A stretch of DNA of 63,584 nucleotides, taken from assembly GCA_018607135.1 (NCBI GenBank), contig JABBCA010000052.1, positions 1 through 63,584 of the forward strand, read 5' to 3'. Shown one piece after another: positions 3,092 to 38,255 of this stretch; position 1 is the first letter of the stretch, and every line of letters begins with the position of its first letter. A program made the translations under genes and the position numbers. The DNA comes from Opitutales bacterium. GTDB taxonomy: Bacteria; Verrucomicrobiota; Verrucomicrobiia; Opitutales; Coraliomargaritaceae. The notes beneath the pieces were generated by a model. The model was given only the letters and a program-made list of their open reading frames with translations, made no database searches and was not told where the DNA came from.

Positions 3092-4954
<1,863 letters not shown>

Positions 4955-19538: not shown

Positions 19539-20324
19539 TTAAACTCGACGACGTAGCATTACGAAAGCCAAGGCAGCAAGCCCCGCGAGCAATCCATATG
19601 CGCTAGGCTCTGGAACGACAGATACATCGAGGTTATTAAAGTATAGATTGTTTTGAGCTGAGCCGTCGTCCGTGCCCGACACATATAACTCAAAATTATC
19701 AATCGAACCTGTGATTCCAGTCACACTACCAGTAAATAAATCTCCTTGTGCACCCTGCCCTGAAACTCTTCGTATCAAATAGTTGATCGAACTCGGTGAG
19801 ATCACAGTGAGGACAGCCTCTAACATCGCGTCTCCACCACCGTAATCATATGTAGCTAACGTCGCATTCAATGTTGCATTTGCAGAACTTACGGATGCGC
19901 CAGAGCCCACATTGAAATTAAAAATCGAATCACCAGCAGTTCGTAGATTAAACCCCTTGTTCCCATTATCAAAATTCACCGCAAAATTAAATGAAAATTG
20001 ATCATTGGTTGTCAGTGCACTTGAAAACGAACGAATTGCTGTCGAGAATGCAGCACCTGGATTGGCATACAACCCAAACGATTGACTCGCACCCGTATTG
20101 ATATCTCCAGCACCTGCAGTTGAATCACCGATAAAGTTACCAGCAAAGGGAGCAATTCCACCACCGTCGTTGTTATTCAAACTCCAAAGCCCAAAGCCAG
20201 AGCCTCCATTAGAGCCGTCGGTCCAACCGCTTCCGTAATTCGAAGCATCATCCGAAGCAGTTAGGGCGAATGCACCTGTTGAAGTCAGCGCAATAAACGA
20301 AGCAAATAAGAGTGTCTTTTTCAT
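19539..20324 (-). CDS. PEP-CTERM sorting-domain protein
   Basis: A 261-residue exported protein. The signal peptide is MKKTLLFASFIALTSTGAFA. The body is Gly/Asn/Ser-rich and beta-sandwich-like. The C-terminus has the PEP-CTERM tripartite signal: VVPEPS, a hydrophobic span (GLLAGLAALAFVML) and the basic tail RRRV. PEP-CTERM proteins are processed by an exosortase (EpsH/XrtA type) and are usually tied to exopolysaccharide; no exosortase lies in this window. It is divergent from the next PEP-CTERM gene, with two operator-like sites between them. Confidence 0.9.
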   Translation of the reverse strand: MKKTLLFASFIALTSTGAFALTASDDASNYGSGWTDGSNGGSGFGLWSLNNNDGGGIAPFAGNFIGDSTAGAGDINTGASQSFGLYANPGAAFSTAIRSFSSALTTNDQFSFNFAVNFDNGNKGFNLRTAGDSIFNFNVGSGASVSSANATLNATLATYDYGGGDAMLEAVLTVISPSSINYLIRRVSGQGAQGDLFTGSVTGITGSIDNFELYVSGTDDGSAQNNLYFNNLDVSVVPEPSAYGLLAGLAALAFVMLRRRV

Positions 20325-20391
20325 AAGGGTATGGAAGCTTTAGGTAACGACAGTAGAACGCCAATAAACATAGAGCGAAATGCCTGCCACG

Positions 20392-20404
20392 GTCAACAGT
20401 TGAA
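20392..20404 (+). promoter_or_regulatory. Operator-like motif, site A
   Basis: GTCAACAGTTGAA lies 68 bp upstream of the minus-strand PEP-CTERM start. It shares the invariant WGTTGA half with five other sites near the LacI-type gene and its likely targets. Confidence 0.55.
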
Positions 20405-20431
20405 CTGCCAATCCCAACTCTCATCCAGTCA

Positions 20432-20444
20432 TTTAACTGTTGAA
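20432..20444 (+). promoter_or_regulatory. Operator-like motif, site B
   Basis: TTTAACTGTTGAA lies 65 bp upstream of the plus-strand PEP-CTERM start at 20509 and 27 bp from site A. It is near-palindromic around ACTGT. Confidence 0.6.
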
Positions 20445-20508
20445 TCCGCACGAAGTTCACACAATGCTTGAAAGCTACATTGTTCAGTTAACTTAAACAC
20501 CACCCCAT

Positions 20509-21258
20509 ATGAAAAAGTTAATCCTTCCGTCCCTTCTCTCGCTGGCTTCACTCACCACAGTAAATGCCACTCTATTCAACGGCAATGGTCTCACTGGTTT
20601 CGGCGATGTTATCGGAAATGGCAGTCTTGAACTGACTGATAACGGCACAACTCTGAGCGGAACCATTACACGTGGCGCCTCAAACTTCAATGACGCTGTA
20701 GTCATCTACATAGACTCAGTAGCTGGAGGCTTCACTGGCACTGGAGGCATGAGCGATACCGCCGACAAGCTTCGTTCTTCCATTTCCTACGGAACCGGAG
20801 GCGCGATCAACTTCACCTCAGGTTTTCAAGCCGACTATGCCATTGCACTGGCACCAAATGGTCCAACTAATGACATTAACTTCGGCGGCCTATGGCAACT
20901 GGATGCGACCAGCCACAGTTTTGTTCAATCCGTGAACCTAAATTCTTCGCCGAATACTGGAAGTGACCCAGGTGGAGTCCCAGGTGACGCAACCTTTACC
21001 TTTGACTTCGATTTCTCAGAAATCGGCCTCGGCGGCCCAAGCAGCTTCAACTTTGTCGCGGTTTACATGAACCCAGATAATCAATTCCTTTCCAACGAAG
21101 CAATTGGTGTCACCGGTGGTTTCACAGGTGCCAATCCTGGTTCAGATGCAACGGTCAGTCTAGAAGGGTCGGCAACCTATGTTCCTGAGCCTGGCAGCTA
21201 TGCCCTTCTTTTAGGACTCTCAGCGGTCAGTTTTGTGATCATTCGCCGCAAGCGATAA
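20509..21258 (+). CDS. PEP-CTERM sorting-domain protein
   Basis: A 249-residue exported protein with signal peptide MKKLILPSLLSLASLTTVNA. The mature part is rich in Gly, Asn, Asp and Thr and looks beta-stranded; no catalytic domain is recognised. The C-terminal sorting signal is YVPEPG, a hydrophobic segment, then IIRRKR. It is transcribed divergently from the preceding PEP-CTERM gene and followed by a third one, so the three form a small cluster. Its role is probably structural at the cell surface or in extracellular matrix (inference). Confidence 0.9.
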   Translation: MKKLILPSLLSLASLTTVNATLFNGNGLTGFGDVIGNGSLELTDNGTTLSGTITRGASNFNDAVVIYIDSVAGGFTGTGGMSDTADKLRSSISYGTGGAINFTSGFQADYAIALAPNGPTNDINFGGLWQLDATSHSFVQSVNLNSSPNTGSDPGGVPGDATFTFDFDFSEIGLGGPSSFNFVAVYMNPDNQFLSNEAIGVTGGFTGANPGSDATVSLEGSATYVPEPGSYALLLGLSAVSFVIIRRKR

Positions 21259-21323
21259 TCAAGTCCCCACAAACCAGCTTTAGTAAGCACCTCAACACCC
21301 GTCGTTACTGGGTAGATGCGCTG

Positions 21324-21336
21324 TTAAACTGTTGAA
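21324..21336 (+). promoter_or_regulatory. Operator-like motif, site C
   Basis: TTAAACTGTTGAA is identical to site F before the giant amylase. It lies 92 bp upstream of the ATG at 21428, almost the same distance as site F from its gene. Confidence 0.65.
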
Positions 21337-21427
21337 TTCAAAAAGCTTTTCAAATCTGAGCTTATTGTTCACCATAAATATTCTGATTTTTATACCACTT
21401 AGTTTAAACCTCACTCATACACAGACT

Positions 21428-22063
21428 ATGAAAAAATTATCCTTACTTATTGCTGCAACCACAGCATCGATATTACACGCAGACCAAGGCTACTTCAACA
21501 ATGCTTACGTCGTCTTAGACAAAGGCAGCGGAGATCAATTCCATCAAATCGTAACAGGCACTACGCCAGGGGCTAATGCTGGCGGTGGAGTCAATCTCGA
21601 CACCTCTTCGGATCTTGGAAATCCAGACTTTACAGCACTTGGAAGCTTTTCGACTGTCACCGATACCTTCAATCTTGCTGGTTTTGAGGTGACGACATTT
21701 AGCAATGGTTCAGACGAAGCTTTTGATGCAGAACTTTACTATCGTGTCTTTAAAGACGGCGAGACGCCAGGCGCCTACACCTCTGCATTCGTTGACACTA
21801 CACAAGAAGATCTTGGCAGTGATAATGAAAAGTGGCAAGTTACTGGTGGAACAATAGACCTGCTAAGCGGAATCACTACGACTGGAAATTATAATTTGGA
21901 AATCTACATCGAAAATGGCTCTAACACTACAGGGGCATTTTACGCATTCGGAACAAATCCGATTGGAACATTCACTATTTCCGCTGTTCCAGAACCTAGC
22001 AGCTTTGCTCTTTTAGCAGGTATTGCGGCTTTCGGCTACATCGCGATTCGTAAACGTAGATAA
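21428..22063 (+). CDS. PEP-CTERM sorting-domain protein
   Basis: Encodes 211 residues from the ATG at 21428 (MKKLSLLIAATTASILHA signal peptide). The longer open frame begins with a TTG inside an operator-like site at 21332 and would put a second hydrophobic stretch before the signal peptide, so I reject it. The body resembles a beta-sandwich with AELYYRVFKDG. The C-terminal signal is AVPEPSS, hydrophobic AGIAAFGYIAI and RKRR. Followed by a good terminator at 22123-22157. Confidence 0.88.
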   Translation: MKKLSLLIAATTASILHADQGYFNNAYVVLDKGSGDQFHQIVTGTTPGANAGGGVNLDTSSDLGNPDFTALGSFSTVTDTFNLAGFEVTTFSNGSDEAFDAELYYRVFKDGETPGAYTSAFVDTTQEDLGSDNEKWQVTGGTIDLLSGITTTGNYNLEIYIENGSNTTGAFYAFGTNPIGTFTISAVPEPSSFALLAGIAAFGYIAIRKRR

Positions 22064-22789: not shown

Positions 22790-23824
22790 CTACTTCACAC
22801 TAGGCCCATCCACCCAGACGCTTTCGATTTGAACAACCTTCGGAAACTCCTGTGCACCATATTCGTTCTTCTGCAATTGTCCAACGACTAGATCGACACC
22901 CGCACTACCCACGACTCGATTGTTCTGCCGCATCCCAGCGAGATGATCAATCGCGTCGTGCCAGTCAATGTGCACGACCCCAAGATCATTAGGCACATTC
23001 ACGCCTGCATCGATAAGCGCTTGATGGAGCTCTACCTTGTTCGTGAGCACGACATCTGGCTTTTGCTTTCGAATTGCGGCAACGGTAGCGGGCAAATCTC
23101 CCATATCGATCGGCAATAAATCAAGCTGATCCTTTTTCGGAAGCTGCCTAGTCACACTATAGAATCCTGCACTGAATTTTGCATCTAAAAGTGAATCGTC
23201 TTCGGCGGGCACCGCCATCAATGGACGCTTATAACCGAGCTCCAGCACTTTCTCAGTCGCTCGGCGCGTGGTCAGATATTGATCGTTAGACGAACAATTT
23301 AATTGATTCTTCAAATGCGTCACACCAATCACCGCACAGGCGAAATTATACCAAAACTTTGAGTAACTCGCGTGTATCGTATCTGGGCTCAGCGCCGCGA
23401 TCAAAATCAAGCCGCGGATGCCTCGCGTCTCTACGATTTGCTTTAGCCGTTCGGGGCGCATATCGGGCTGCTTTAGCCAAAACTCCTCGATTCCATAGCC
23501 CAACTGCTCCGCGCGATTCATCACACCTTCTCGGAGTCGACGAAAGGTATGGTTCTGTCGCAAATCTTGAACAGGAGAGCAATTGATCAGCCCCAAATTG
23601 GCTTGAAACGTCGGTTGTCGCCCCGCGCGTAATTGCGTCATTAGTGAATCCACCACCGGATTGCGACGATAGCCCATTTCGTCGGCGATCTTCTGAATTT
23701 TGATACGCGTCGCCTCTGGAATGCGTGGATCATTTCGCAGCGCCAGTGACACTGCAGACTTACTCACACCCGCAGCATTCGCAATCTGCTGCATATTGGG
23801 GCGTCTATCGGGGGATTGGGGCAT
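22790..23824 (-). CDS. LacI-family transcriptional regulator
   Basis: Encodes 344 residues from the ATG at 23824; a TTG at 23869 would add 15 residues ahead of the normal N-terminus. The helix-turn-helix lies at about 11-30 (MQQIANAAGVSKSAVSLALR), followed by the hinge region (GYRRNP) and a periplasmic-binding-protein-like ligand domain from residue ~75. It is divergent from the giant amylase gene. Operator-like sites D and E lie directly upstream of its ATG, suggesting autoregulation, and site F faces the amylase. The ligand is probably a malto-oligosaccharide or related glucan (inference from neighbours). Confidence 0.92.
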   Translation of the reverse strand: MPQSPDRRPNMQQIANAAGVSKSAVSLALRNDPRIPEATRIKIQKIADEMGYRRNPVVDSLMTQLRAGRQPTFQANLGLINCSPVQDLRQNHTFRRLREGVMNRAEQLGYGIEEFWLKQPDMRPERLKQIVETRGIRGLILIAALSPDTIHASYSKFWYNFACAVIGVTHLKNQLNCSSNDQYLTTRRATEKVLELGYKRPLMAVPAEDDSLLDAKFSAGFYSVTRQLPKKDQLDLLPIDMGDLPATVAAIRKQKPDVVLTNKVELHQALIDAGVNVPNDLGVVHIDWHDAIDHLAGMRQNNRVVGSAGVDLVVGQLQKNEYGAQEFPKVVQIESVWVDGPSVK

Positions 23825-23825
23825 G

Positions 23826-23838
23826 TTTGACAGTTGAG
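23826..23838 (+). promoter_or_regulatory. Operator-like motif, site D
   Basis: TTTGACAGTTGAG begins 2 bp upstream of the lacI ATG. It is the weakest match of the six (last base differs). Confidence 0.45.
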
Positions 23839-23872
23839 CATGCTCCCAAGGCACTCGCAAGTCGAGCAATTA

Positions 23873-23997: not shown

Positions 23998-24085
23998 TAC
24001 ACACCGTTTCGCTCGGCTAGAATTCGTTCTACAGTGCTTTCCATCCCACCTATTTATGCCTATAGTGAACTAGGTGCTTATCCCC

Positions 24086-27000
24086 ATGCTCCATACATTT
24101 TCATCTACCCTACGCGCGCTGAGTCAATCAGCACTCCTCCTAGTCACCCTCTTGTGTGCCCACACCGCGCGAGGCGAGGCCATGTTGCAATATTTCAACA
24201 CGGACTGGGCGGAGATCACTCGCAAGATGCCAGAGCTCGCTGAGGCAGGTTACTCGTCTCTCTGGCTGCCGCCCCCTACCAAAGGTAGTGGCGGTCTCTC
24301 TGTCGGTTACGACATGTGGGATCCTTACGATCTGGGTAGTCTTAATCAGCGCAATACGATCCGCACACGCTACGGCACCGAAGCGGAGCTCTTAGAGCTG
24401 GTCAAAACTGCCCACCGTTTCGGTATCCGAGTTTATTTTGACAACATCATGAATCACCGGGCTTTCGATATCCCTGGATTCAATGAAGACACGCCAATCG
24501 ATGTCTACCCAGGCATGGTTCCTGAAGATTTCCACCTACGCACCACACAAGAAGGTTTCTATCGCAAATGGGATAACACCCGCGACTGGAACAGCGCTTG
24601 GCAGGTGCAAAACCTCGGCCTCGCTGACTTGATTGACATCGCACAAGAGCCAGGCACGACCAATCAAAACTTTGGCCCCAATGAAGGGGACACCTTTCCT
24701 AAAATTAAATTCATCCGTGATCTGGATCGTCCACATCAGTATGCCTACGACAAAGATGGCAACTACGTCGGGTTTGGCGGCTTGCTAACCATTGCGGAAG
24801 GACTCCTCAATGGCGAAGGCAGCCCCACTCCTAGTGAGGCTCAAATCAAAGCACGTGCCCAACAATATCTCCAAGACAATGCAGGCGTTTACGAGGAATA
24901 CGTTGAGGACTATCTCAATCGCGCCGCTCGCTGGTTGATGGATCGCACAAAGGCAGACGGACTACGCCTGGACGCCGTGAAGCATGTGCGTGCCGATTTC
25001 TTTGGTGCGACCTTCGGCGTGGATAAGGATACCAGCGATTACGGCTACCATGGCCAAATTCAACGTCAGTTTAACATTACGCGCGGTTTCAGTGACCCTA
25101 ACCATCGCGACACTGTCTTCGATACCGAAGCACCGCGCGATGACGCCATGCTCTTCGGCGAACACCTCGGAGAGCCTCCCGGCTATGGCCCCTACTTCGA
25201 CTCTGGCATGCGTCTAGTGGACAACCCACTCCGCCAACAATTCAACGACCGTCTGGGCAGCCCGTTTAATGGCCTTAACGGCTTCGACAATCCAGGCGCT
25301 GGAGGATTTGATCCAGCTCTCACTGTCATGCATGCTCAAAGCCATGACAATGATTACGCCGCACGCCGCGAACTCCAGCACGCGATGTATTTCACACGAG
25401 CTGGGCTCGGCCTTCTTTACACTGATGGCAACTATCAAGCTGAAACACTCGGCGAGTCAGGCGGCGCGTTTCCACGTCACGCCAACACTTCCTTTCTGGG
25501 TCAATGGGACGACGCACGCGTGCCGAACCTACTCTACATCCACGAGCAATTCGCACGCGGCTATCAACAAGGCAAATGGTCCGACAGCGATGTCGTGATC
25601 TACGAACGTGTCGACAAACGCGAGAACGGTAGCATGACCGACGCTGACGGCGTCACCATGCTCTTCATGCTCAATGACAACTACTCCGCAGGTCAGGGAC
25701 GAAACTTCGGCACGAGCTTCCCAGCAACTGCTGGTGGCAGCGATGCATACCTCTACAATTACTCAGACTATGGCGGCGGCTTCTACACTTACGCTTCCAA
25801 CATCGTAAATGGCAGCACCGTCATCCCTGAAGGTGGTTACTTTGTCTTTTCTTGGAAAAACCCAGACCCCTCCATTCTCTGGTCAAACTCCGGCGGACGC
25901 CCAATCACCATCTATCAAAATGGTGTGGAAGTCGACACCGTCGATGTCTTACGCCGCGATGGCCCGAATGGAGATGCCGATTTCCATGGCGACACCCTTC
26001 CCATCTCCAGCCAGCCAATCATCAGCAATCCACAGAGCGACGACTTTGCATATACAGCGACCGTGCCACGCATCACTGATGGCACCCAAGTAAACTTCGT
26101 CGCACGGGCTGATGGATCTGCCGAAAATATTCTCTTTAAACTCGACGGTGGCATTGATCTAAACGGCATCAACCACTCTGGTGGTGACCCCCGTGACAAT
26201 CCACCAGCGCTCGCCACCGATACCTTTCTCGGCTATGAGCAACCCACTTTCGTAGATCGAATCGGCCCAGAAAAATTCGCGGCGATTGATACCGCTCGCT
26301 GTATTTTTGGATCTGCGGGCGCTGAGACCTACACTGCGGGCGCTCCAACCATTGATGGCTTCGGCAGCAACCCGCAAGAAGCCGCTGCAGCGACCTTCGT
26401 TTTCCACGACCCAATCGGTGGCTTTGATGGCTGGACACCTCAAGACGGCTCACTCGCCACCGCCACACAGCTCGACCAAACCGGTGCCTCGACGATCCTT
26501 TGGGCCAAGACCAATAGTGTCGGTGCTGGTTTCAGGGCATTCATTTACTACACCACCGACGGCAGCAATCCCGAAGGTGCTGGAGGATGGGGTCGTGGCA
26601 CCACACAAGCCGCAGAGGCTTTTTATGTGACGCCCAATACAGCAGGCGGCGACAATTGGTGGCGTGCAGAGATCGACCCGACTCCCGCAGGCACACTTAA
26701 ATACAAAATCGGAATCTATCAGACATCACAATCTAGCATCTTTCCAACTGGCGCAACAGAGGTCGCACTCAAGACAAAGATGATGACGACCTTTCAAACC
26801 AGCGAGCGTGACCTGACTACTGTGAGCGTGCGCCCACACAATGACTACGGTGTCACCGAGACTGGCCTCGAAGAAGGCATGCACATGATCGCCGCACGCG
26901 CATTCCTTGAGCGCCCTGGTAAAGCATCGATTTATAACACCTTCAAGCAAACCTTCTATTATGATGCACAACGCCCTCAGGGCGAAGTTCGCTTCCCTGA

Positions 27001-30000
27001 AAACGACAACGACACTATCGGCGGTTCCAGCTACGGAGTAGTCGTTCGCACCGACGCGACCGTTGAGGAAGTATGGTATTGTATCACCGATTCCGATACA
27101 GCCAACGACGACATCAACACAGGCGGCAGCAACGGCAACGGAGTCGGCTTCGAGCCCTACATCGACACCAACCAAAACGGAACACGTGACGCAAATGAAG
27201 CTTACGAAGACCTCAACAACAATGACACATGGGATAACAACATCACCGACAATTGGGTGCGCGCTTCCGAGCTCACACCAAGCCTCGCCTTCGAGCCCAC
27301 AAATTCTGCCTACCGTAAAGAGTGGCGCTTTGATTACGTCAACGTCCCAGCCACCGGAACTGCCGACATTAAAATACGCCTGCGTGAACTCTCATCTGCA
27401 GACTATGAAAACTTCTCACTCAGCGATGCCAATGGTCACTACACCACCATCACTCGCACTGTGAATACCGCAGGTCCAAATGAGCGCATGTTCATCGCAT
27501 TTCCCTCACAGGACCGTCAAATTGTCGACGACAGCTACATTATGAAGGTCTATTTCAGCAAGTCGCTTGCGGGTGGATTGACCGAACAAGCGCTCATTGA
27601 CCGTTTCTTAATAAGCATAGGCTCTAACGAAGAAGGAGACGCTGGCGAACCTCAAAGTCGCGACAACTACAGCATCGTTTATGACGAAACCAGCGACTAT
27701 CACTCCCTCGCTTATCAGCTTCCAAATCTTTATAACGATCTACCGAGCTACGATCACAAGATCACTGTCACACACGACCGCCCTTCCCCTGCGACTGACT
27801 TCGAAACGTGCCGCATCGTGCGCGCGCTTCCAGTCACCACACCTCGTGTGCTCATTGTCAATCCGCCTGAACTCGACTCAGATGGTCGCCCTTTTGAAAT
27901 CATCCTACCCGATGTGCCCACACCCGCAGCTGAAGATCGCCAGTTTACGATTCAAGTAGCAACCAATCTCAATGCCACTAACGTCACCTTAAGCTTCGTG
28001 GACTTACGTGGTTCTAGTGTCGCGGTGCCCACCACAAGCGAAGCAGGCAACAGTAAGTTCTGGAACTTCATCTGGTCCGATATCGCAGAAGGCACTTACC
28101 GTTTCACTGCGACTGTCACCTCACCGAGCGGCAACAATACCGCGGATCGTAACACCAAGATCCTCTACCGCGAGATCGTCGACGAAGACGATACCGATGC
28201 AGACGATGACGACGACGGCCTATTAGATAGCGACGAAAACACCGCGCAATTCCTACCCAATCAAAGCCCAGATGGCGGCATCACTCCGGCACCCAAGCCA
28301 AATCCTGAGCAGTGGACCAACGGCGAAGTGCATGTGCATTACGCCTACGGCAAGTCCAGCCCGACCTCTCCAGACACCGACGGCGATGGGCTCCCAGATG
28401 GACTTGAAGTCGGTTGGCGCAATGCCGCTGGCGATCCTCCTACCGATCTAAGCGCAAACACTGATGGTGATGCCTTCCCTAATTTCATCGGCGACCTCGA
28501 CCCTCCATTCTACAACACACTCGACAACTTTGGCAATGTGCCCGATGTCGACAGTCAAAGTCTAGGTGGCGACCGCGCACGCCAGTCCGCTGGCTCCGTG
28601 ACTGACCCCGCAGATCCTGACAGCGACAACGATGGCCTTCTCGACGGTGTCGAAGATGCGAATCGCAACGGTTGGGTCGATGGTGACGGCGAACTCATTC
28701 CTGTAACATTCGATCCATGGGCAGGTCGTGATTGGCCCGATGGCATTATCCAACCGAGCGAAACATGGGTGGAAACCGACCCCAACAATGCCGACACCGA
28801 CGGCGACGGAGCGACGGACGGCTTTAGCGAAGATAGCAACTTTGACGGTGTCATCGAAGGCGACACCAACACCGACCGCGCTTACGATACCGGTGAAGAA
28901 TGGTCAGAAACTGATCCACTCAACGCCGACACCGACGGCGACGGCCTCCCCGACGGATGGGAAATCGACAACGGCCTCGATCCACTCGATAACGGTGTCG
29001 ACAACTTGCGCACCACTGCAGCCAGCGACCCGCAAACTTACGTGCACTCGACTCAAGGCGCTCTACCGCGCAATGGTGGCAGCGACGACCCCGACGAAGA
29101 CGGCTTCACGAATCTCCAAGAACTCGCCAACGGCACACGCCCGCTCGAAGACGATAACGTGCCCCCTCCTCCTGCGAACTCAATCATCATCGGCCCAGGA
29201 AATGACGACACAGTGGGCAACGCAATCAATCTCAATGAGTTCACCGACTGGACGATTGACGACCTGCTCGTGCTCGATGAATACGATGGCAACGGCACCA
29301 ACAACCAAGGCACCGACATTTATAAAGCCTACGACGGCTTTGACGAATCTCGCGACATCGTCGCCTTCTACTTCCGCGATGGTGGTGGTGATGGCAAAGT
29401 CTATTTCCGCTTCGATTTCCACGACCTGCAAGCTTTTGCCGAGGAAGGAAACTTAGACGCTTACGTCGTTATCGATACGGGTAACACGTCCGTAGGTGAA
29501 TCCGCACTACCTGAGGATTTAGATACGCGCACCGAGATGAAATGGGAAGTGCTCGTCGCGATCTACCAAGCCGACAACGGAGCCGTTTACATCGATACCG
29601 ATCCGGGTGACAATACCACAGCCATCGGCGAAGATGTATTCACTAAGGGTGTCGTGCGCCGCACGCAGGCAAACGCCAATGGATTCGGTCAGGCCTATTT
29701 CAATTCCGACCTCGACTCAATGGAAGCCTCAATCAGCAGACAAGCGCTGCTGGACGCAGGTTGGAACGGAAACGCCGACAACCTCAACTTCCAAGTCTTC
29801 ACCACCCGCGATGGCACCAACAATTCTCCGACTCCAGGACTCGGCGACATCGGTGGACGTAGCGACATCCGCGACGCCGTGTATGATGACTTTATCGCAT
29901 CCGCCTACTTCCGCGATCAAAGCAGCATAGCTGGCGACAAGAGTATCCTTTACAGCTGGTTCAGCCGCACAGGTGCCAACGATCGCGGCAAGCGCGCCAA

Positions 30001-32494
30001 GGTTGCCCTACTCGCACATGGCAACCAGCCCATACGTTCCGCAAACGAGATGCACGATCGTATCAACGACGGCGCAGGCGCAGGTTACTTCCGTCTGATC
30101 GATACGCACGAAGCCTTCAGCGCTCCAGTCAATCTGCACATCACACCCACGCTCGCATCCGCACTACAATGGGCAGTCGTTGCCCCCTCCGCCAACAAAC
30201 CATGGCGTGATGGCCCGACGCTCAATACGCGCATCAGCACATTATTACTCAACGATCAAGCCATGCTCTTCGGCACCACATTTGCTGACCAGGTCATTCC
30301 ATACGCCAGCACCGCATTTACCCAAGACAGTGTGAACCTTGCCGATACCGTGTTGAGTGAAGTGTATAGCACCTCTCCATCGACCAGCGTTTTCTGGCCC
30401 GCCGAACGCGTAGTCGATGACGGCGTGCTCGGCACTATCCAATCCATGGGCTACACCCACACAGTCGTGGATCAAATGCGCCATTTCTTCAAATGGTTTG
30501 GGCGCACACAAGCGCTTGGACAAGCAGGTTATCAGATCAACGAAGTTAACAACGTCGGACTGTTCCCGATACATGATTTCGCCAGCACCTTCCGCTTCGA
30601 AAATAATGACAGCGGGCTCAACATGTCCTTGCGAGAATTACTCAATCGCCGCGCACGTAGTGACACGCAAGATCAAGTGCTCAGCCTCCTCAGTGATTGG
30701 GAAGACTTCCGCACAGGCACCCAAGCCGATGCCTACGACATTAACCTTCGCTGGCTCGCCAACCGCCCTTGGATCGAACTCGTCACCCTTGAAGACGTTG
30801 CCAGCGGTGACATCGATTTATCCGAACCCGCAGACGGCACAGGCGACAACTGGAGCACCGTTGATCGCGGCACAGGACAGTCCCTACAAACGACTGCTAA
30901 GGACTTCATCGACCATGCCACACAAGAAGATTACGGTAACTGGTATGACGGCCAAAGCGGCCGCGAAGAAGGCCTCAAAGGCAAGACCTTTGAGATACGC
31001 CCAGGCATCAGCCTCCCTGACAGTTTTGGCGAAGTCGGCGATACAGGCATCGCAAATACCACATGGAATCAAGTCAATGCGATCAGCAACACGAGCACCA
31101 GCGAGCTCGGTCGCTCCGCAGCTCACGCCGCGATGTTTGTCACCGCATTCCATGACCAGCAAAACAACGACCTCAGCAAGTTCTCCACTGGCACCTACAT
31201 CTACCCAGATACCGACTTCAACAATCTAGCCGAGTTCTCCAAACTCGCTCAGTCGCAAATGCGTTTTGCCGCACTTTACAAGCGTGTCGACACATGGGCA
31301 GCCGCTGCGCCGGTTGTCGCAACAGCAAGCACGGAAGACGTCGACCTAGATGGCGAAGTTGAATACCTACTCTACAACGAGACCTCCTTCGCGGTCTTTG
31401 AAGCCATCGGCGGACGCTGCGTCGCGGCCTTTGCACGCAACGCAATCACTGGAAGAGTTTACCAAGTCATCGGCACACAACTCACTTACGCAGGCTTCGA
31501 AACCGAAGAAGAAGGCACCGCAAACGTCGACAACGGCGAGATCGGCGCACGCAGAACCTCAGCCTTCAAAGACTGGTTTGCAGATGGAACCGGTGGCGGC
31601 ACCACTGGCTATGTCAATTCACTCTATACAGTAACTGCGAGCGGCAGTGGCACTGGATGGACATTCACTGCACCTGGAGGGCACATCGTCAAGACCATCA
31701 CACTCGACAACACCCTACCCGAACTCCAAGCCGACTATAGCCTCAGCGGCGATGTCAATAAGCTCTTCGTCCGTCATGGTCTGTCACCCAACTTGTGGAA
31801 TTTGATCAGCCGCGGTCAATACGACCTCGACCCACTCAGTGTATCCACAGGACGCATACGCCTCGCTAACCGTGGTGGTGCCGAGCCAGTCGTCGCACAA
31901 GTCACTTACGACGCGAATACCGACTTTGTCGGCGGAGCCGTTGACGACGAACTGGGTGTCACCGAATGGGACGCGCTCAACATGCGCAACCAAGCGCTGA
32001 TACAACAAGTCGAACTCACCAACGTGGACGGACAAAGCAACTTCTCGATGAGCCTGAGCCTCGAAAGCGGCACTACCGACAGTGACGGCGATCTGTTACC
32101 CAACTGGTGGGAACTCGACAATGGCCTCGATCCTAATAGCGCTGTAGGCGGCAATGGCACCACTGGTAACGACGATGGTGATGCATTCACGAACTACGAA
32201 GAATACGTCTTGGGCCTCAACCTAGGAGTGGCTGAGTTCAACGGTCTACCGCAAGGCCTCATTGCGAAGAATGTCACAGGCGGCTTCACTGTCACCTTCC
32301 CTGTTCTTGCAGGCAGAAGCTACCGTGTCTGGTATACCGATGATCTCAGCGATACATGGGATCCAGCAGGCGGCAGCTTCAGCATCAGTGAGAGCGACAG
32401 CGCCTACGTCTGGACAGACGATGGCACCAACACTTCACCTGCCCCCGACACCGTCGATAACCGTTTCTACAAGATAGAAATCACCCGACCCTGA
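24086..32494 (+). CDS. Giant secreted GH13 alpha-glucan hydrolase with GH57-like second module
   Basis: Encodes 2,802 residues from the ATG at 24086 (a GTG 12 bp earlier is possible); signal peptide is about 1-31. Residues ~35-500 are a GH13 barrel with all four conserved regions: DNIMNH (D119), LRLDAVKH (nucleophile D296), LFGEH (acid/base E359) and QSHDND (D421). A beta-rich domain C follows (~500-650), then sandwich modules including YYTTDGSNPEG with WWRAEID. DxDxDG thrombospondin-3-like calcium repeats span ~1366-1690 and a DOMON/CBM9-like sandwich spans ~1720-1950. From ~1968 a GH57-like part starts (ALLAHGNQP), with FWPAER at 2103-2108 placing a candidate nucleophile at E2107. The C-terminus has another DSDGD repeat and a strand-rich tail. 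Usual amylases are 450-700 residues. The GH57 assignment rests on motifs by eye. Confidence 0.88.
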   Translation: MLHTFSSTLRALSQSALLLVTLLCAHTARGEAMLQYFNTDWAEITRKMPELAEAGYSSLWLPPPTKGSGGLSVGYDMWDPYDLGSLNQRNTIRTRYGTEAELLELVKTAHRFGIRVYFDNIMNHRAFDIPGFNEDTPIDVYPGMVPEDFHLRTTQEGFYRKWDNTRDWNSAWQVQNLGLADLIDIAQEPGTTNQNFGPNEGDTFPKIKFIRDLDRPHQYAYDKDGNYVGFGGLLTIAEGLLNGEGSPTPSEAQIKARAQQYLQDNAGVYEEYVEDYLNRAARWLMDRTKADGLRLDAVKHVRADFFGATFGVDKDTSDYGYHGQIQRQFNITRGFSDPNHRDTVFDTEAPRDDAMLFGEHLGEPPGYGPYFDSGMRLVDNPLRQQFNDRLGSPFNGLNGFDNPGAGGFDPALTVMHAQSHDNDYAARRELQHAMYFTRAGLGLLYTDGNYQAETLGESGGAFPRHANTSFLGQWDDARVPNLLYIHEQFARGYQQGKWSDSDVVIYERVDKRENGSMTDADGVTMLFMLNDNYSAGQGRNFGTSFPATAGGSDAYLYNYSDYGGGFYTYASNIVNGSTVIPEGGYFVFSWKNPDPSILWSNSGGRPITIYQNGVEVDTVDVLRRDGPNGDADFHGDTLPISSQPIISNPQSDDFAYTATVPRITDGTQVNFVARADGSAENILFKLDGGIDLNGINHSGGDPRDNPPALATDTFLGYEQPTFVDRIGPEKFAAIDTARCIFGSAGAETYTAGAPTIDGFGSNPQEAAAATFVFHDPIGGFDGWTPQDGSLATATQLDQTGASTILWAKTNSVGAGFRAFIYYTTDGSNPEGAGGWGRGTTQAAEAFYVTPNTAGGDNWWRAEIDPTPAGTLKYKIGIYQTSQSSIFPTGATEVALKTKMMTTFQTSERDLTTVSVRPHNDYGVTETGLEEGMHMIAARAFLERPGKASIYNTFKQTFYYDAQRPQGEVRFPENDNDTIGGSSYGVVVRTDATVEEVWYCITDSDTANDDINTGGSNGNGVGFEPYIDTNQNGTRDANEAYEDLNNNDTWDNNITDNWVRASELTPSLAFEPTNSAYRKEWRFDYVNVPATGTADIKIRLRELSSADYENFSLSDANGHYTTITRTVNTAGPNERMFIAFPSQDRQIVDDSYIMKVYFSKSLAGGLTEQALIDRFLISIGSNEEGDAGEPQSRDNYSIVYDETSDYHSLAYQLPNLYNDLPSYDHKITVTHDRPSPATDFETCRIVRALPVTTPRVLIVNPPELDSDGRPFEIILPDVPTPAAEDRQFTIQVATNLNATNVTLSFVDLRGSSVAVPTTSEAGNSKFWNFIWSDIAEGTYRFTATVTSPSGNNTADRNTKILYREIVDEDDTDADDDDDGLLDSDENTAQFLPNQSPDGGITPAPKPNPEQWTNGEVHVHYAYGKSSPTSPDTDGDGLPDGLEVGWRNAAGDPPTDLSANTDGDAFPNFIGDLDPPFYNTLDNFGNVPDVDSQSLGGDRARQSAGSVTDPADPDSDNDGLLDGVEDANRNGWVDGDGELIPVTFDPWAGRDWPDGIIQPSETWVETDPNNADTDGDGATDGFSEDSNFDGVIEGDTNTDRAYDTGEEWSETDPLNADTDGDGLPDGWEIDNGLDPLDNGVDNLRTTAASDPQTYVHSTQGALPRNGGSDDPDEDGFTNLQELANGTRPLEDDNVPPPPANSIIIGPGNDDTVGNAINLNEFTDWTIDDLLVLDEYDGNGTNNQGTDIYKAYDGFDESRDIVAFYFRDGGGDGKVYFRFDFHDLQAFAEEGNLDAYVVIDTGNTSVGESALPEDLDTRTEMKWEVLVAIYQADNGAVYIDTDPGDNTTAIGEDVFTKGVVRRTQANANGFGQAYFNSDLDSMEASISRQALLDAGWNGNADNLNFQVFTTRDGTNNSPTPGLGDIGGRSDIRDAVYDDFIASAYFRDQSSIAGDKSILYSWFSRTGANDRGKRAKVALLAHGNQPIRSANEMHDRINDGAGAGYFRLIDTHEAFSAPVNLHITPTLASALQWAVVAPSANKPWRDGPTLNTRISTLLLNDQAMLFGTTFADQVIPYASTAFTQDSVNLADTVLSEVYSTSPSTSVFWPAERVVDDGVLGTIQSMGYTHTVVDQMRHFFKWFGRTQALGQAGYQINEVNNVGLFPIHDFASTFRFENNDSGLNMSLRELLNRRARSDTQDQVLSLLSDWEDFRTGTQADAYDINLRWLANRPWIELVTLEDVASGDIDLSEPADGTGDNWSTVDRGTGQSLQTTAKDFIDHATQEDYGNWYDGQSGREEGLKGKTFEIRPGISLPDSFGEVGDTGIANTTWNQVNAISNTSTSELGRSAAHAAMFVTAFHDQQNNDLSKFSTGTYIYPDTDFNNLAEFSKLAQSQMRFAALYKRVDTWAAAAPVVATASTEDVDLDGEVEYLLYNETSFAVFEAIGGRCVAAFARNAITGRVYQVIGTQLTYAGFETEEEGTANVDNGEIGARRTSAFKDWFADGTGGGTTGYVNSLYTVTASGSGTGWTFTAPGGHIVKTITLDNTLPELQADYSLSGDVNKLFVRHGLSPNLWNLISRGQYDLDPLSVSTGRIRLANRGGAEPVVAQVTYDANTDFVGGAVDDELGVTEWDALNMRNQALIQQVELTNVDGQSNFSMSLSLESGTTDSDGDLLPNWWELDNGLDPNSAVGGNGTTGNDDGDAFTNYEEYVLGLNLGVAEFNGLPQGLIAKNVTGGFTVTFPVLAGRSYRVWYTDDLSDTWDPAGGSFSISESDSAYVWTDDGTNTSPAPDTVDNRFYKIEITRP

Positions 32495-32513: not shown

Positions 32514-35500
32514 ATGAGACATCTATTTTCCGTTTTCATTTTTCTCATAGTTACTCTACATGCGAGCTATGGTGCAGCGTCAGGTGACCTTTGGCATATC
32601 CCTTTTAATCAAGAAGTGCCTGAAAATAATGGAGGCACCTCCAATTTTTATCGCATGCGCACACCGTATGTCGAAATCGACCCCGTCGGCACTTTCACAG
32701 TCTACCAAGGTTTCTTTAAAGACGGAGGCACGAATGGCGATCAAGACGGCGGCACGCTTTACTACCGGAACGCAACCGCTGCGGGCGCATGGCAATCCGA
32801 GGCACTCGGCTTCCACGCCAACGAAGGTGGCAATCAATTCTGGAAAGCATCTGTCGATCTCGGCCCTACCGGACTCGATGCAGCTGATACAGACATCATT
32901 GAATACTACATTTTAGTCACTTTTACAGGTGGCACTCCGGACAATACCTACATCTACGGTGGTGATCTTGATCCCGGTTCAGGCAATCAACTCTTCACCG
33001 ACACTGAAGCCACCGCACAAGCCGCCCCCTACTCTTTCCGTAACCGTCCAGCATGGATTTTCCACGCTGACAATCGAGTCATCAACGGCGACGACCTAGA
33101 ATTCTGGGCAAAAGTGGGCTATATCATCGACATCAACGACAACACCACACGCTGGGCCAATGCGGGTGCTGTTTACTACACAACCGACGGCACAGATCCG
33201 GAAGGATCACTTGGCACAGCCAGCGGAAACAGCAATGCAGTGGCATTTACCTACAGTCATCCTGAACAAAATGAAATCGACAGTGGCAGCACCACTGGTG
33301 GTCGTGGAATGTGGTGGCGTGCAGATGTTGACGACCTCTTGCAAGGGCTCTCGCTCGGTTCGACAATTAAATATCGTATCGGTTTTTGGAATACAGGAAC
33401 AAACGAAGAGAAATTTGCCGATCATAATGCGGGCACCAACAATCAGACTTTTTCATTTAGCAACGGCGCTCTCGGAGACCCAGTTCTCACAGTATCGACG
33501 GCAACCACTGGCACTCTCAATGGCGACTACACAACAACTAAACTCTATGTAGATGAAATCGCCAACGACAGTATTCCGGTAACCATCTTGTTTGAACCGG
33601 GTCAGTCCAATATTACAGCGGGTAGCGTTCAGGTCGTCACCAACTTGAATCAACGTCACCGCGCAGATGCAGACAAGAATTCAAACAACATTTCAGATGG
33701 CCAAGAATGGAATCAAACCGAAGCCATCATCGGATCTTCCACTGACGACACTTACTACTATCAGACGCATACAATGACAGCGACTGGAAACCCTGGTGAA
33801 TATTCGGTAGTCATCAATGCCACGAAAACTGGTGCCTACCGCTTATCAGCACGCTGGAAAGTCGATGGAGACCCAGACTGGCGTCAATACACCGCATTTG
33901 GACGTCGAGACCACGCGCTCACCGTTGCGCCTACCGATGCACGCAACATCAATCTCTACGAAATTAACACGCTCACTATCGAGGCAAATGGCGGCGGCTA
34001 CGCCAATCGCTCTACCTTTGAGGATCTACACGACGCAGCGGGCGCACTGCGAACTGGCGACGGCAAAGGATTTAACTTAGGCTACTTACAAGGCTTAGGA
34101 GTGAACTGGCTCTGGTTCCAACCAGTCCACCCTCCTGCAATCGAAGGCCGTGAAACCGACCCCGCCACGGGATTCGCCTACGATCACGGCAGTCCTTATG
34201 CGATTAAGAATTTCTTCGAAATCGACCCAGCGATGAGCATTGCCAACACGCGCACCGCAGCGAGAACTGCATTCAAAGACTTTGTCGCTGCTGCCGATGG
34301 CGCCAATGTCGAGATCATGCTCGATGCACCATTCAACCACACCGCTTTCGACGTCGAACTCGGCCAACCAGGTGTCGACCTCTTTCAACCAGATGGACAA
34401 GCATGGTCCGACACTGATGAAATTCGAAATCGAGATGCCCGCTTCTTCTCGAAAGGAAACATCTTCAACAGCGACGACAATAACTACGGCGAACGAGCCT
34501 CAAATTCAGGCGAAATGACCAATGCCCCCGACCGTGGCGATTTCGGTAAATGGGGAGATGTTGTCGATGTCTTCTTCGGCAATTACGACTCACTAGTCAG
34601 ATCTAATGTCACCGAAAACTCACGCTACCTCAACGAAGGAGACCAATTCTACTACACCGACCCAACCTGGATATCGAACGACTTCGTCCAAGGTAGCATC
34701 GATCAGAACACGACTCGCAACGTCTGGAAATACTTTAGAGATTATGCACTCTATTGGCTAGACGAGACAGGCTACCCAGCTGGCACTGCACACACTGAGG
34801 CGAATCGAAATATAGGTATCGACGGCCTACGCTGTGACTTTGGCCAAGGGCTTCCACCCCAAGCATGGGAATACATCATTAACACCGCGCGCACTCGGAA
34901 GTGGAATTTCGTGATGATGAGCGAATCGCTTGACGGTGGCGCAGTCACCTACCGCTCGAATCGCCACTTCGATATCATGAATGAGAATATTGTTTTCCCA
35001 CTCAAAAGCGCAGGTGATGCATCCGCATATCGTCAAATCTTTGAGGACCGCCGCAACTCTTACGGTCAAGGTCTAGTGCTTCTCAACAATACCTCACACG
35101 ATGAGGAAAACTACGTCGATCCGTTCGAAGCACTGGTTCGCTACTCCGTTGTCGGAGCTATGGACGGCGTGCCACTCGTGTTCATGGGCCAAGAACTCGG
35201 CATTTCACGGACGTTCGGCTTCACCTTCTACGAAACCAATTTCGGCAAACAGATTGGTCACTTCAAGAAGTATAACTCCATCGATCCGATCTGGGATGAT
35301 GGTGACTTCGGCAACGATCAAATCTATCAAGTGTATGCAGGCATTAACTCCGCGAGATTGTTCAGCCCTGCATTACGTAGTAACAACCGCTGGTTCCTAG
35401 ATGGAAATGGATTCAACAATCAAATCTTCGCGGTGGCCAAATACGAGGAGGCCAACGCGTCTCCAGCTACCAGTGATGTGGTCATCGCGCTCACCAACGT

Positions 35501-36404
35501 AGACCGCGACAACAATCAATCCGATCAATTCGTGCTCCCCTCTGCCTTAGCCGACCTAATGGGCATTCAAGACAGCCGCATGTATAACGTGAAGAACATC
35601 GCCGCTTACACAGGCCAAGATCCAAACCGTAGAAATTATTGGCTCTGGAATGGCAGTGCGGGCTTCAGTGGCGCCGCGCTCAAATCGACTGGTTTCTTTG
35701 TGCAACTTTGGGAGGTGCCTACCGAACCAGCTCTTTGGACTGCTGGCCCCTACGAGGCGCAATACCTAAAAGTTTACGATGTCACCGCACCATCCGCGAC
35801 ACCGACGCAACCGACGCAACCACAAGTTTACAATTACGCCATCGGCGACACGGTCACCTTTGATTGGGCAGACGTTCCGGCAGATGCAGGAGGCGTGATT
35901 CCGCATTACCAAGTCACTGTTACCATCAATGGAAATACACAAGCTCCCGATACGGTTTCGATCAGTGAATACACCGTCAACGCTTCAGAAGACGATGAAA
36001 TCTCTATCACCGTTAAAGCAGTGAACCCAGAAGTGACCAGCAATGCCGGCCCTAGCAGCTCTGCCAGTGCGACCGTTAAACTACTCGCCGAAAACGACGA
36101 CGAAGATGGCGACGGCGCAAGCAATGCCGCTGAAGACAGTGCTGGAACCAATCCGCTCGATTCTAGTTCAGTGCTTTCTGTAACGAATCTAGACAAGGCA
36201 AGCAATACTGCGACCGTGAGTTGGAATAGCGTAAGTGGCATCTTTTACGTAGTGCAAACGCGCGACTCCCTCAGCACGGGTGACTGGGCAGACATCGCAG
36301 GATCGGGAACATTTGGCACTGGAGGCGAACTCAGTTATGAGCATTCGATTGCTCCAAGTGATGATCAACAGTTCTATCGTGTCCGTATTGCAACCGCTCC
36401 TTAG
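32514..36404 (+). CDS. Secreted multidomain GH13 alpha-amylase-like enzyme
   Basis: A 1,296-residue exported protein (signal peptide ~1-21). Residues ~25-450 are N-terminal beta modules, one with YYTTDGTDPEG and MWWRADVDD, homologous to a module in the upstream giant enzyme. The GH13 barrel (~475-1000) has LDAPFNH (D604), LRCDFGQG (nucleophile D775), MSESLD (acid/base E804) and NTSHDEEN (D863). Cys replaces the usual residue before the nucleophile. The end carries a fibronectin-III-like domain (~1100-1180), an acidic EDGDG calcium-type motif and a FYVVQT sandwich tail. It starts 19 bp after the giant gene, so both are probably one operon. Substrate probably starch or a related alpha-glucan. 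Confidence 0.9.
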   Translation: MRHLFSVFIFLIVTLHASYGAASGDLWHIPFNQEVPENNGGTSNFYRMRTPYVEIDPVGTFTVYQGFFKDGGTNGDQDGGTLYYRNATAAGAWQSEALGFHANEGGNQFWKASVDLGPTGLDAADTDIIEYYILVTFTGGTPDNTYIYGGDLDPGSGNQLFTDTEATAQAAPYSFRNRPAWIFHADNRVINGDDLEFWAKVGYIIDINDNTTRWANAGAVYYTTDGTDPEGSLGTASGNSNAVAFTYSHPEQNEIDSGSTTGGRGMWWRADVDDLLQGLSLGSTIKYRIGFWNTGTNEEKFADHNAGTNNQTFSFSNGALGDPVLTVSTATTGTLNGDYTTTKLYVDEIANDSIPVTILFEPGQSNITAGSVQVVTNLNQRHRADADKNSNNISDGQEWNQTEAIIGSSTDDTYYYQTHTMTATGNPGEYSVVINATKTGAYRLSARWKVDGDPDWRQYTAFGRRDHALTVAPTDARNINLYEINTLTIEANGGGYANRSTFEDLHDAAGALRTGDGKGFNLGYLQGLGVNWLWFQPVHPPAIEGRETDPATGFAYDHGSPYAIKNFFEIDPAMSIANTRTAARTAFKDFVAAADGANVEIMLDAPFNHTAFDVELGQPGVDLFQPDGQAWSDTDEIRNRDARFFSKGNIFNSDDNNYGERASNSGEMTNAPDRGDFGKWGDVVDVFFGNYDSLVRSNVTENSRYLNEGDQFYYTDPTWISNDFVQGSIDQNTTRNVWKYFRDYALYWLDETGYPAGTAHTEANRNIGIDGLRCDFGQGLPPQAWEYIINTARTRKWNFVMMSESLDGGAVTYRSNRHFDIMNENIVFPLKSAGDASAYRQIFEDRRNSYGQGLVLLNNTSHDEENYVDPFEALVRYSVVGAMDGVPLVFMGQELGISRTFGFTFYETNFGKQIGHFKKYNSIDPIWDDGDFGNDQIYQVYAGINSARLFSPALRSNNRWFLDGNGFNNQIFAVAKYEEANASPATSDVVIALTNVDRDNNQSDQFVLPSALADLMGIQDSRMYNVKNIAAYTGQDPNRRNYWLWNGSAGFSGAALKSTGFFVQLWEVPTEPALWTAGPYEAQYLKVYDVTAPSATPTQPTQPQVYNYAIGDTVTFDWADVPADAGGVIPHYQVTVTINGNTQAPDTVSISEYTVNASEDDEISITVKAVNPEVTSNAGPSSSASATVKLLAENDDEDGDGASNAAEDSAGTNPLDSSSVLSVTNLDKASNTATVSWNSVSGIFYVVQTRDSLSTGDWADIAGSGTFGTGGELSYEHSIAPSDDQQFYRVRIATAP

Positions 36405-36527: not shown

Positions 36528-38255
36528 GTGGCTAAATTACATCACTTCGCACTCATAGCCATGCTCGCGTCTGCAGCATATGCTGCCCCGACCGTTCCAG
36601 ATTGGGCGAAGGACGTGGTCTGGTATCAGATATTCCCAGAGCGATTTAATAATGGCGATCGGTCCAACGATCCCACACGTGCATCCCTAAGTGAGCCACA
36701 GTATGTAACGCCCAATTGGCAAACCACTGCATGGGAGTCTGAATGGTTCGACCGCGCGGATTGGGAAAAGGAAATGAGCCCCCACTTTGATGCGACCTTA
36801 CACCACCGTCGCTATGGAGGCGACCTGCAAGGTGTCATCGATAAACTCGACTACCTCAAAGAACTTGGAGTCACTGGCATTTATTTCAATCCGATCTTCT
36901 ACGCGGACTCTCTGCATAAATACGATGGCAACAGCTTTCATCACATCGACCCTCATTTTGGCCCCGATCCAGAAGGCGACCTAAAAATCATCGAAGAAGA
37001 GTCGAGCAACCCAAGAAGCTGGCAATGGACAGCCGCCGACAAACGCTTCCTCGAACTTCTTAAAGAAGCCAAGGCTCGCGACATCCGTGTCATCATCGAC
37101 GGCGTCTGGAACCACACCGGGCGCGATTTCTTTGCGTTCGCCGACATCCGCACACGTTTCCAAAAATCACGCTACGCACGCTGGTATGACATCAAGCAAT
37201 TCGACGACCCACGCACTGCCCGTAACGAGTTCGACTACAATGGATGGTATGGCTTCAAAAGCCTTCCCGAATTTGCCAACGATCCATCAGATCAGAACTT
37301 AGCTTCGGGCCCTAAACGCTATGTGTTCAATGCTAGCAAGCGCTGGATGGACCCAAACGGCGACGGCGATCCAAGTGACGGTATCGACGGCTGGCGCCTC
37401 GATGTCGCCGAAGAAGTGCCCCACGGCTTTTGGCAAGAGTGGCATGCTTACATTCGCGAAATCAATCCAGAGGTCTTTACCTCCGCCGAGATTTGGGGAA
37501 GCGCGGGACAGTATCTACGTGAGACACACTTTTCCTCGGCAATGAACTATCGCGGCTTTGCCATTCCTTTAAAAGGCTGGCTCATTGATGGGAAAATAAC
37601 CGCGAGTCAATTTGCCGAACGTCTCAACAACGAACGCAATAGCCATGGCGACAACGCTTACATCCTGCAGAACCTAGTCGACTCGCACGACACCCAACGA
37701 ATCGCCTCAGCAATCGCCAATCGCAGCAGCTTCGATCACTACAAAAACTCTGACTGGTTCGACTACGACGATGGCGAACGCGTCAACGCTCGAACTCCAG
37801 GTTATAACAATGGCCCACCCGACGAAGACGGTTATCGCATCTGGAAAATGCTCGCACTCTTTCAAGCCACCTATGTCGGCGCGCCAATGATTTACTACGG
37901 CACCGAAGTCGGCATGTGGGGAGCAGACGACCCCGAGGACCGTATGCCGACATGGTGGCATCGGATGGACAAGGCGATCTACAAAAGCTACCAAGCCGCC
38001 TTTCAACTACGACATACACACACTGCCCTTCGACGCGGAGATTTCAAAGTCCTCGAAACCCGCGATGATGCGCAAGTGTTTGCCTTCGAGCGCACCTATA
38101 GCGATGAGCGCCTAGTAGTGACCTTCAATCGAGGTAATGGTGACGCCACGCTCGATGGCGACTACCTAAAAGGTCTGAAGTTGATTCACTCAACTGACCC
38201 CAGCGCCAACACACGCCGTCTGCCAAAACTAAGCGCAGCAATCTTTGGACAGTAA
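36528..38255 (+). CDS. GH13 neopullulanase/cyclomaltodextrinase-like enzyme
   Basis: Encodes 575 residues from a GTG at 36528, chosen because it gives a complete signal peptide (MAKLHHFALIAMLASAAYAA). The barrel begins VVWYQIFPERFNNGD, typical of oligosaccharide-acting GH13 enzymes. Conserved regions are DGVWNH (D191), WRLDVAEE (nucleophile D292), TSAEIWG (acid/base E321) and VDSHDTQR (D388). The protein ends with a short beta domain and has no extra modules, so it probably acts on oligosaccharides released by the two larger enzymes, in the periplasm (inference). It follows the 1,296-residue gene by 123 bp. No transporter is next to the cluster. Confidence 0.92.
   Translation: MAKLHHFALIAMLASAAYAAPTVPDWAKDVVWYQIFPERFNNGDRSNDPTRASLSEPQYVTPNWQTTAWESEWFDRADWEKEMSPHFDATLHHRRYGGDLQGVIDKLDYLKELGVTGIYFNPIFYADSLHKYDGNSFHHIDPHFGPDPEGDLKIIEEESSNPRSWQWTAADKRFLELLKEAKARDIRVIIDGVWNHTGRDFFAFADIRTRFQKSRYARWYDIKQFDDPRTARNEFDYNGWYGFKSLPEFANDPSDQNLASGPKRYVFNASKRWMDPNGDGDPSDGIDGWRLDVAEEVPHGFWQEWHAYIREINPEVFTSAEIWGSAGQYLRETHFSSAMNYRGFAIPLKGWLIDGKITASQFAERLNNERNSHGDNAYILQNLVDSHDTQRIASAIANRSSFDHYKNSDWFDYDDGERVNARTPGYNNGPPDEDGYRIWKMLALFQATYVGAPMIYYGTEVGMWGADDPEDRMPTWWHRMDKAIYKSYQAAFQLRHTHTALRRGDFKVLETRDDAQVFAFERTYSDERLVVTFNRGNGDATLDGDYLKGLKLIHSTDPSANTRRLPKLSAAIFGQ

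Follow-up and report, generated by a model that had tools for sequence, protein, structure and literature searches.

GH13 and GH57 modules joined in one probably secreted protein of Verrucomicrobia and relatives, with a plausible GH57 catalytic dyad

The window, a stretch of 63,584 nucleotides from an Opitutales bacterium (contig JABBCA010000052.1, forward strand), encodes a protein in which a GH13 alpha-amylase domain and a GH57 module are joined. GH13 and GH57 are separate alpha-glucan families with different folds. The single chain of 2,802 residues that the first-pass annotation had described holds: the frame translates so and both families match. The assignment of the second module to GH57 is supported by family profile and by predicted fold, and many Verrucomicrobia and relatives share the fusion. 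With moderate confidence, the protein is read from its sequence and model as a secreted enzyme of modular build that degrades alpha-glucan with two catalytic barrels, each from a different, unrelated family; E2107 and D2204 would form the GH57 dyad. The gene, its parts and its neighbours are as follows.

22790..23869, minus strand: LacI-type regulator, divergent, upstream (PF00356, 1.3e-12)
24086..32494, plus strand: fused gene, 2,802 residues plus stop; the open reading frame may start four codons earlier, at the GTG at 24074
24086..24178, plus strand: N-terminal hydrophobic segment, residues ~1–31, a likely Sec signal peptide from inspection of the sequence
24179..25885, plus strand: GH13 alpha-amylase domain, residues 32–600 (PF00128, 1.6e-11; PDB amylases to 3.4e-25)
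24971..24973, 25160..25162 and 25346..25348, plus strand: codons of the GH13 triad D296, E359 and D421, kept in relatives
25886..28285, plus strand: spacer of all-beta Ig-like domains, residues 601–1400 (AlphaFold2 pLDDT 84.3, pTM 0.67; generic matches)
28352..29170, plus strand: Asp/Gly/Asn-rich TSP3-like linker, residues ~1423–1695 (PF18884 below its cut-off)
29183..29977, plus strand: glucodextranase-C/CBM74-like beta domain, residues 1700–1964 (1ug9 and 7uwv)
29987..31276, plus strand: GH57 barrel and helical part, residues 1968–2397 (PF03065; 9jlu)
30404..30406, plus strand: E2107, the GH57 nucleophile position in FWPAERV
30470..30472, plus strand: D2129 in VVDQMRH, at the end of the fifth barrel strand
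30695..30697, plus strand: D2204, the proton-donor position in LLSDWEDF
30704..30706, plus strand: D2207, a position acidic in most of the family
31316..32065, plus strand: C-terminal beta-sandwich, galactose-mutarotase-like, residues 2411–2660 (3mwx; 1k1x aligns through the sandwich)
32066..32491, plus strand: second TSP3-like stretch and C-terminal tail, from the sequence; other proteins have similar tails
32514..36404, plus strand: second GH13 protein, 1,296 residues (PF00128, 4.9e-6; 4gkl, 6.8e-9)
36528..38255, plus strand: third GH13 protein, 575 residues, with a maltogenic-amylase C-domain (PF00128, 6.7e-48; PF16657, 2.1e-6)

The complete triad that had been noted in the GH13 domain is in place. 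D296, E359 and D421 sit in GLRLDAVKH, LFGEHLG and QSHDND and are invariant among the rows of a 65-row alignment that carry a residue at these positions (61/61, 63/63 and 64/64, respectively). D296 lies within a segment that aligns with DGFRLDAVKH in the solved amylase 4uzu, and the solved sequences nearest to the domain are mostly alpha-amylases; the domain has both the PF00128 match and the Asp/Glu/Asp triad. Residues 601–1400 were predicted as a chain of beta-sandwiches with generic Ig- or cadherin-like matches (best Z 9.7, in a structure comparison that barely covered model residues 1–361), and linker residues 1423–1602 are CglD-like with a score far under that model's cut-off. Judged by its N-terminus, the protein is probably secreted.

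The GH57 nature of the second part had been proposed from motifs; the N-terminal pattern ALLAHGNQP was located at residues 1974–1982, and both the profile search and the structure prediction returned GH57. Against the whole protein PF03065 scored 2.1e-4 and 21.1 bits, just below the curated cut-off of 21.2, and against residues 1958–2660 alone it was significant at 2.6e-5 and 24.1 bits. The same profile matched 10/10 close orthologs and, at E ≤ 0.01, 39 of 42 more distant relatives (the Sumerlaeia row being among the three misses), which had been hand-picked from the 78 loci of the pattern scan given below to cover other clades. When solved structures were searched with two sequence profiles, one matched nothing and the other gave weak matches only (two GH57 structures, 7e1y at 0.14 and 1k1w at 1.4, and one unrelated hydrolase, likewise at 1.4). 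Profile–profile probabilities were 38.6% for a third GH57 group, 3.35% for the branching-enzyme group and 0.31% for the amylopullulanase group, the last being no better than the GH13 control (0.25%).

An AlphaFold2 model of residues 1700–2660 was built from 72 sequences (pLDDT 94.7, pTM 0.92). The predicted fold is an incomplete (beta/alpha)7 barrel followed by a helical bundle and a C-terminal sandwich. The best structural match, 1k1x (Thermococcus litoralis 4-alpha-glucanotransferase; Foldseek E 6e-21, Z 29.3, 499 residues), covers barrel, helices and sandwich with an rmsd of 9.5 Å spread over several domains, and the Aquifex GH57 amylopullulanase 9jlu aligns at 3.3 Å over 333 residues (Z 27.9). 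All 18 top rows of the ranking are GH57 (Z 22.9–29.3); below them stand polysaccharide deacetylases (≤19.8), one further GH57 (18.1) and GH38 mannosidases (≤16.2). Model residues 1–265 come about equally close to two known folds, CBM74 (7uwv, Z 14.4, 3.4 Å over 207 residues) and the region at the C-terminus of glucodextranase (1ug9, Z 15.1). The sandwich-like region that had been suspected downstream corresponds to model residues 712–961 (residues 2411–2660), which match the galactose-mutarotase-like sandwich 3mwx (Z 15.9). The presence of GH38 mannosidases among the Foldseek matches raises the possibility that the GH57 module is catalytic on a glycan unlike starch, such as an alpha-galactoside or alpha-mannoside; GH57 also includes alpha-galactosidases, and the CSR-4 fingerprint fits no specificity given in the excerpted PMC6037648. 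Such a substrate appears very improbable, however, as the 18 GH57 rows outrank both deacetylases and GH38, and the surroundings contain three GH13 domains as well as a domain of starch-binding type.

The distribution of the fusion was followed in three samples. In a kinship sample 28/57 genomes match the whole protein somewhere, many of them via linker or tail repeats alone; a near-full-length single match (71–100% identity) is present in 7/57 genomes, the window's included, three genomes (G014, G019 and G053) match in pieces within one frame of 2,804–2,905 residues, and partial copies occur in G009, G034 and G035. When genomes at least 90% complete were drawn evenly from the phylum, 13/144 genomes and 11/81 genera gave a match. 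A scan with two short peptide patterns over one genome per species (84,980 species), which relatives without the patterns escape, returned 78 loci, some from genomes also in the kinship sample; 77 lie on records of Verrucomicrobiota, Kiritimatiellota, Lentisphaerae or unassigned bacteria and one belongs to Candidatus Sumerlaeia. Among 79 open reading frames with the GH57 part, 63 also carry the GH13, middle and CBM-like parts. An assembly chimera or frame accident was considered and is ruled out, because 53 of these frames, closed at both ends and 2,696–3,009 residues long, carry the fusion. The 16 remaining frames comprise 13 whose 5' part lies beyond the contig, L077 (the GH13 part lies in a separate overlapping frame just upstream, a probable frame break), L104 (beginning 430 bases from the contig end, without GH13) and L115.

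Relatives that do not contain GH13 are the stand-alone L115 (Sumerlaeia, 3' end cut) and L127–L129 (1,140–1,197 residues). The latter three are stand-alone paralogs of CBM-like–GH57 type, with an insertion past the nucleophile and an FDDWE motif, and their genomes hold fused copies too. A second GH57-profile match is found in the same genome as L001/L042 (G000:C78:9304-9912; E 3.2e-13, frame of 1,178 residues), and similar matches in other genomes of the phylum lie in frames of 1,298–1,411 residues.

At the locus itself both downstream GH13 proteins show D, E and D motif residues when their translations are inspected by eye. A homologue of the 1,296-residue protein starts at most ~350 bases past the end of the fused frame, or overlaps it, in 24/78 pattern-scan loci, and a divergent LacI gene is present at 12/78; both counts were made by eye over loci many of which end too early to judge, while others, long enough, lack both neighbours. 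Three adjacent small proteins with PEP-CTERM ends (19539–22063) are encoded near the LacI gene. Elsewhere in the window, a GreA/GreB-type factor (3092–4954) is extended at its N-terminus by ~460 residues, to which no Pfam family matches at E ≤ 1e-5.

For the GH57 active site 86 fused or truncated rows were aligned, including L077, L104, L130 and L131, whose GH13 part is either detached or lost to truncation. E2107 in FWPAERV, the candidate nucleophile of the first-pass annotation, stands up well: Glu occupies the position in 84 of the 85 rows that are not gapped at this point, and profile–profile alignments with three further GH57 groups each pair E2107 with the nucleophile Glu. R2108 is Arg in 84/85 rows, and D2129 and H2133 are constant (85/85). 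In one row, L051 (Puniceicoccaceae isolate AG-457-L13), position 2107 is Asn and D2204 is retained. The conserved regions CSR-1 (HxNQ), CSR-3 (WxxER) and a CSR-5-like NWYxG were seen in the GH57 part and CSR-4 is kept in part. E79, which is the glutamate of CSR-2 in the T. litoralis enzyme, maps to residue 2060, which is Met in the window protein and Glu in 3/85 rows.

By our count the barrel strands of the model comprise residues 272–280, 316–320, 360–362, 403–404, 426–430, a hairpin at 452–463 and 500–505. E2107, in the motif W2104-P-A-E2107, is model residue 408, four residues past the fourth (two-residue) strand 403–404. D2204 is model residue 505, the last residue of strand 500–505, which is the seventh strand if the hairpin counts as one. 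In GH57 the nucleophile Glu is located on strand 4 and the donor Asp on strand 7, according to the excerpted text of PMC6037648, and the strand order of E2107, D2129 and D2204 fits this rule. The FDDWEA of the stand-alone relatives aligns gap-free to SDWEDF of the window protein, so that D2204 takes donor position 20 and residue 2207 position 23 of the fingerprint as set out in that excerpt. In profile alignments to other GH57 groups the donor segment meets a gap or an unrelated stretch; these alignments fix the nucleophile only, and the donor register is therefore drawn from the within-family alignment and the strand order. D2129 was considered as the acid and dropped as first candidate: it is invariant, yet as model residue 430 it ends the fifth strand, not the seventh. 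The likely proton donor, from sequence and model, is D2204 rather than D2129, and the window protein has a plausible E2107/D2204 Glu/Asp dyad.

Position 23 bears on specificity. The excerpt of PMC6037648 assigns T/S/A to amylases, K to 4-alpha-glucanotransferases, L to branching enzymes and F to alpha-galactosidases, and D/E at 2207 fits none of these classes. Amylopullulanases are absent from the list as excerpted; amylopullulanase-like rows of this phylum, read by eye, show LDGEN, that is Asn at position 23. As 81/85 rows have D/E and not Lys at this position, the GH57 fold is assigned to the module and not the specificity of a 4-alpha-glucanotransferase.

The donor position varies across the family. 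D2204 is Asp in 42/85 rows and absent in 43/85, E2206 is Glu in 48/85 and missing in 37/85, and among the fused or truncated rows an acid (D/E) occupies 2207 in 81/85, while all four stand-alone rows read D-W-E-A. A quick tree of 87 rows (residues 2190–2215 excluded, midpoint root, without bootstrap) was calculated; three of the 90 rows (L113, L114 and L118) were omitted as too short, and L115 and L136 sit on long branches. The minimum number of changes on this tree is at least 7 for D2204, 9 for E2206 and 4 for acidity at 2207. In one clade of 30 rows (support 86, under the tool's 95 mark), which includes 7/9 of the tree rows named Kiritimatiell- or Pontiellaceae, D2204 is found in 0/30; the position holds N in 12, M in 8, R in 3, H in 3, A in 2 and S in 2, Glu2107 is present in 30/30, an acid at 2207 in 29/30 and Glu at 2206 in 27/30. 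The window's clade (14 rows, support 100) retains D2204 in 14/14, and so does another clade (support 100), made up of Verrucomicrobiia/Chthoniobacter-type rows, in 17/17.

This pattern bears on two further explanations. The GH57 module may be a non-catalytic or decaying glucan-holding domain, so that GH13 cuts while the GH57 barrel and the CBM-like domain grip the chain. The repeated loss of the donor Asp, which reaches every row of the clade of 30, speaks for such a domain, but the nucleophile is kept even in that clade, a dead site being expected to lose E2107 as well, and the window's own clade retains D2204 throughout; we regard it as possible, though on the unlikely side. Less probable still is a GH57 module that is catalytic throughout, its donor having shifted in the fused lineage from 2204 to 2207 (or 2206), a step of two or three residues on the loop of strand 7. 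The near-constant acid at 2207 of the fused or truncated rows, against Ala in the 4/4 stand-alone relatives that retain DWE, and the acids at 2207 and 2206 in the D2204-less clade would be explained by such a shift. On the other hand, two (L078 and L136) of the four rows without an acid at 2207 also lack D2204, and 2207 is the specificity-marking position 23 in the excerpted PMC6037648, so that it may set specificity instead. Taken over the whole family, where E2107 is constant while D2204 drifts, the GH57 part would be either decaying, a binding module or the user of a shifted acid; that the module is always catalytically active across the family is doubtful.

For the window protein we prefer a two-barrel enzyme. 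In the proposed scheme the GH13 domain would cut alpha-1,4 glucan internally, and the Ig-like and TSP3-like chain would space it from the starch-binding-type domain that is joined to the GH57 module. There E2107 would attack the sugar and D2204 would donate the proton, and the module may trim, transfer or debranch the GH13 products, on which the two neighbouring GH13 enzymes would act next, under LacI control. The domains, the fold, the conserved fusion and the gene order are shown by the data, whereas secretion, catalysis by the GH57 module and the precise reaction, control by LacI and the succession of steps are the parts of the scheme that we infer. It is supported by the conserved GH13 triad, the GH57 profile and fold, E2107, the presence of D2204 in the window's clade, the starch-binding-type domain and the GH13 and LacI neighbours, and weakened by the losses of D2204 and E2206, the rarity of the CSR-2 Glu and the profile alignments that miss the donor.

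GH13 and GH57 were reported to be jointly over-represented in Lake Mendota Verrucomicrobia genomes (PMC5615132, in excerpt), and it is our guess that the fusion helps to explain this. The retention of both families in a single, probably secreted protein across Verrucomicrobiota and relatives provides a natural test of concerted action. Members that have the donor, that lack it or that carry an acid three residues further on form a series that bears on the loss or displacement of the acid in a retaining glycosidase, and a shifted donor, if true, would mean that some members perform GH57 chemistry with a new catalytic pair.

Double-GH13 amylopullulanases, such as those of Bifidobacterium, are secreted and also combine two catalytic domains for alpha-glucan in a single chain. 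Both of their domains are GH13, whereas the second domain of the fused protein belongs to an unrelated family. A description of a GH13–GH57 fusion was not found in the open-licence literature, nor in the excerpt of PMC11046441; GH57 appears as a single-domain protein in the portion of PMC5010890 used, and a search of PMC9582752 for catalytic residue names found none. The Pontibacter PUL likewise combines GH13 and GH57 in one alpha-glucan locus but as separate proteins, its GH57 being suggested to be a 4-alpha-glucanotransferase (PMC11206854, in excerpt). The GH57 'like' proteins of the excerpted PMC6037648 lack catalytic residues, and some members of the fused family likewise have a substitution at a catalytic position; unlike them, the fused family keeps the nucleophile, varies at the donor position and has the long GH13 fusion. 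An unclassified Opitutaceae GH57 on its own branch, outside the known GH57 groups, represents a related group for which the same excerpt mentions no GH13 fusion, and this sequence may belong to the fused family. The Aquifex aeolicus amylopullulanase (9jlu and others) shares the barrel fold, but its chain of ~480 residues has no GH13 and aligns to model residue 698, the sandwich being excluded. The T. litoralis 4-alpha-glucanotransferase (1k1w/1k1x) resembles the window's GH57 in the order barrel, helical part and sandwich and in the WxxERV motif. The two differ in the CSR-2 Glu and the CSR-4 fingerprint and share 14–15% identity, and the window's GH57, unlike the T. litoralis enzyme, is fused to GH13 behind a secretion-type N-terminus.
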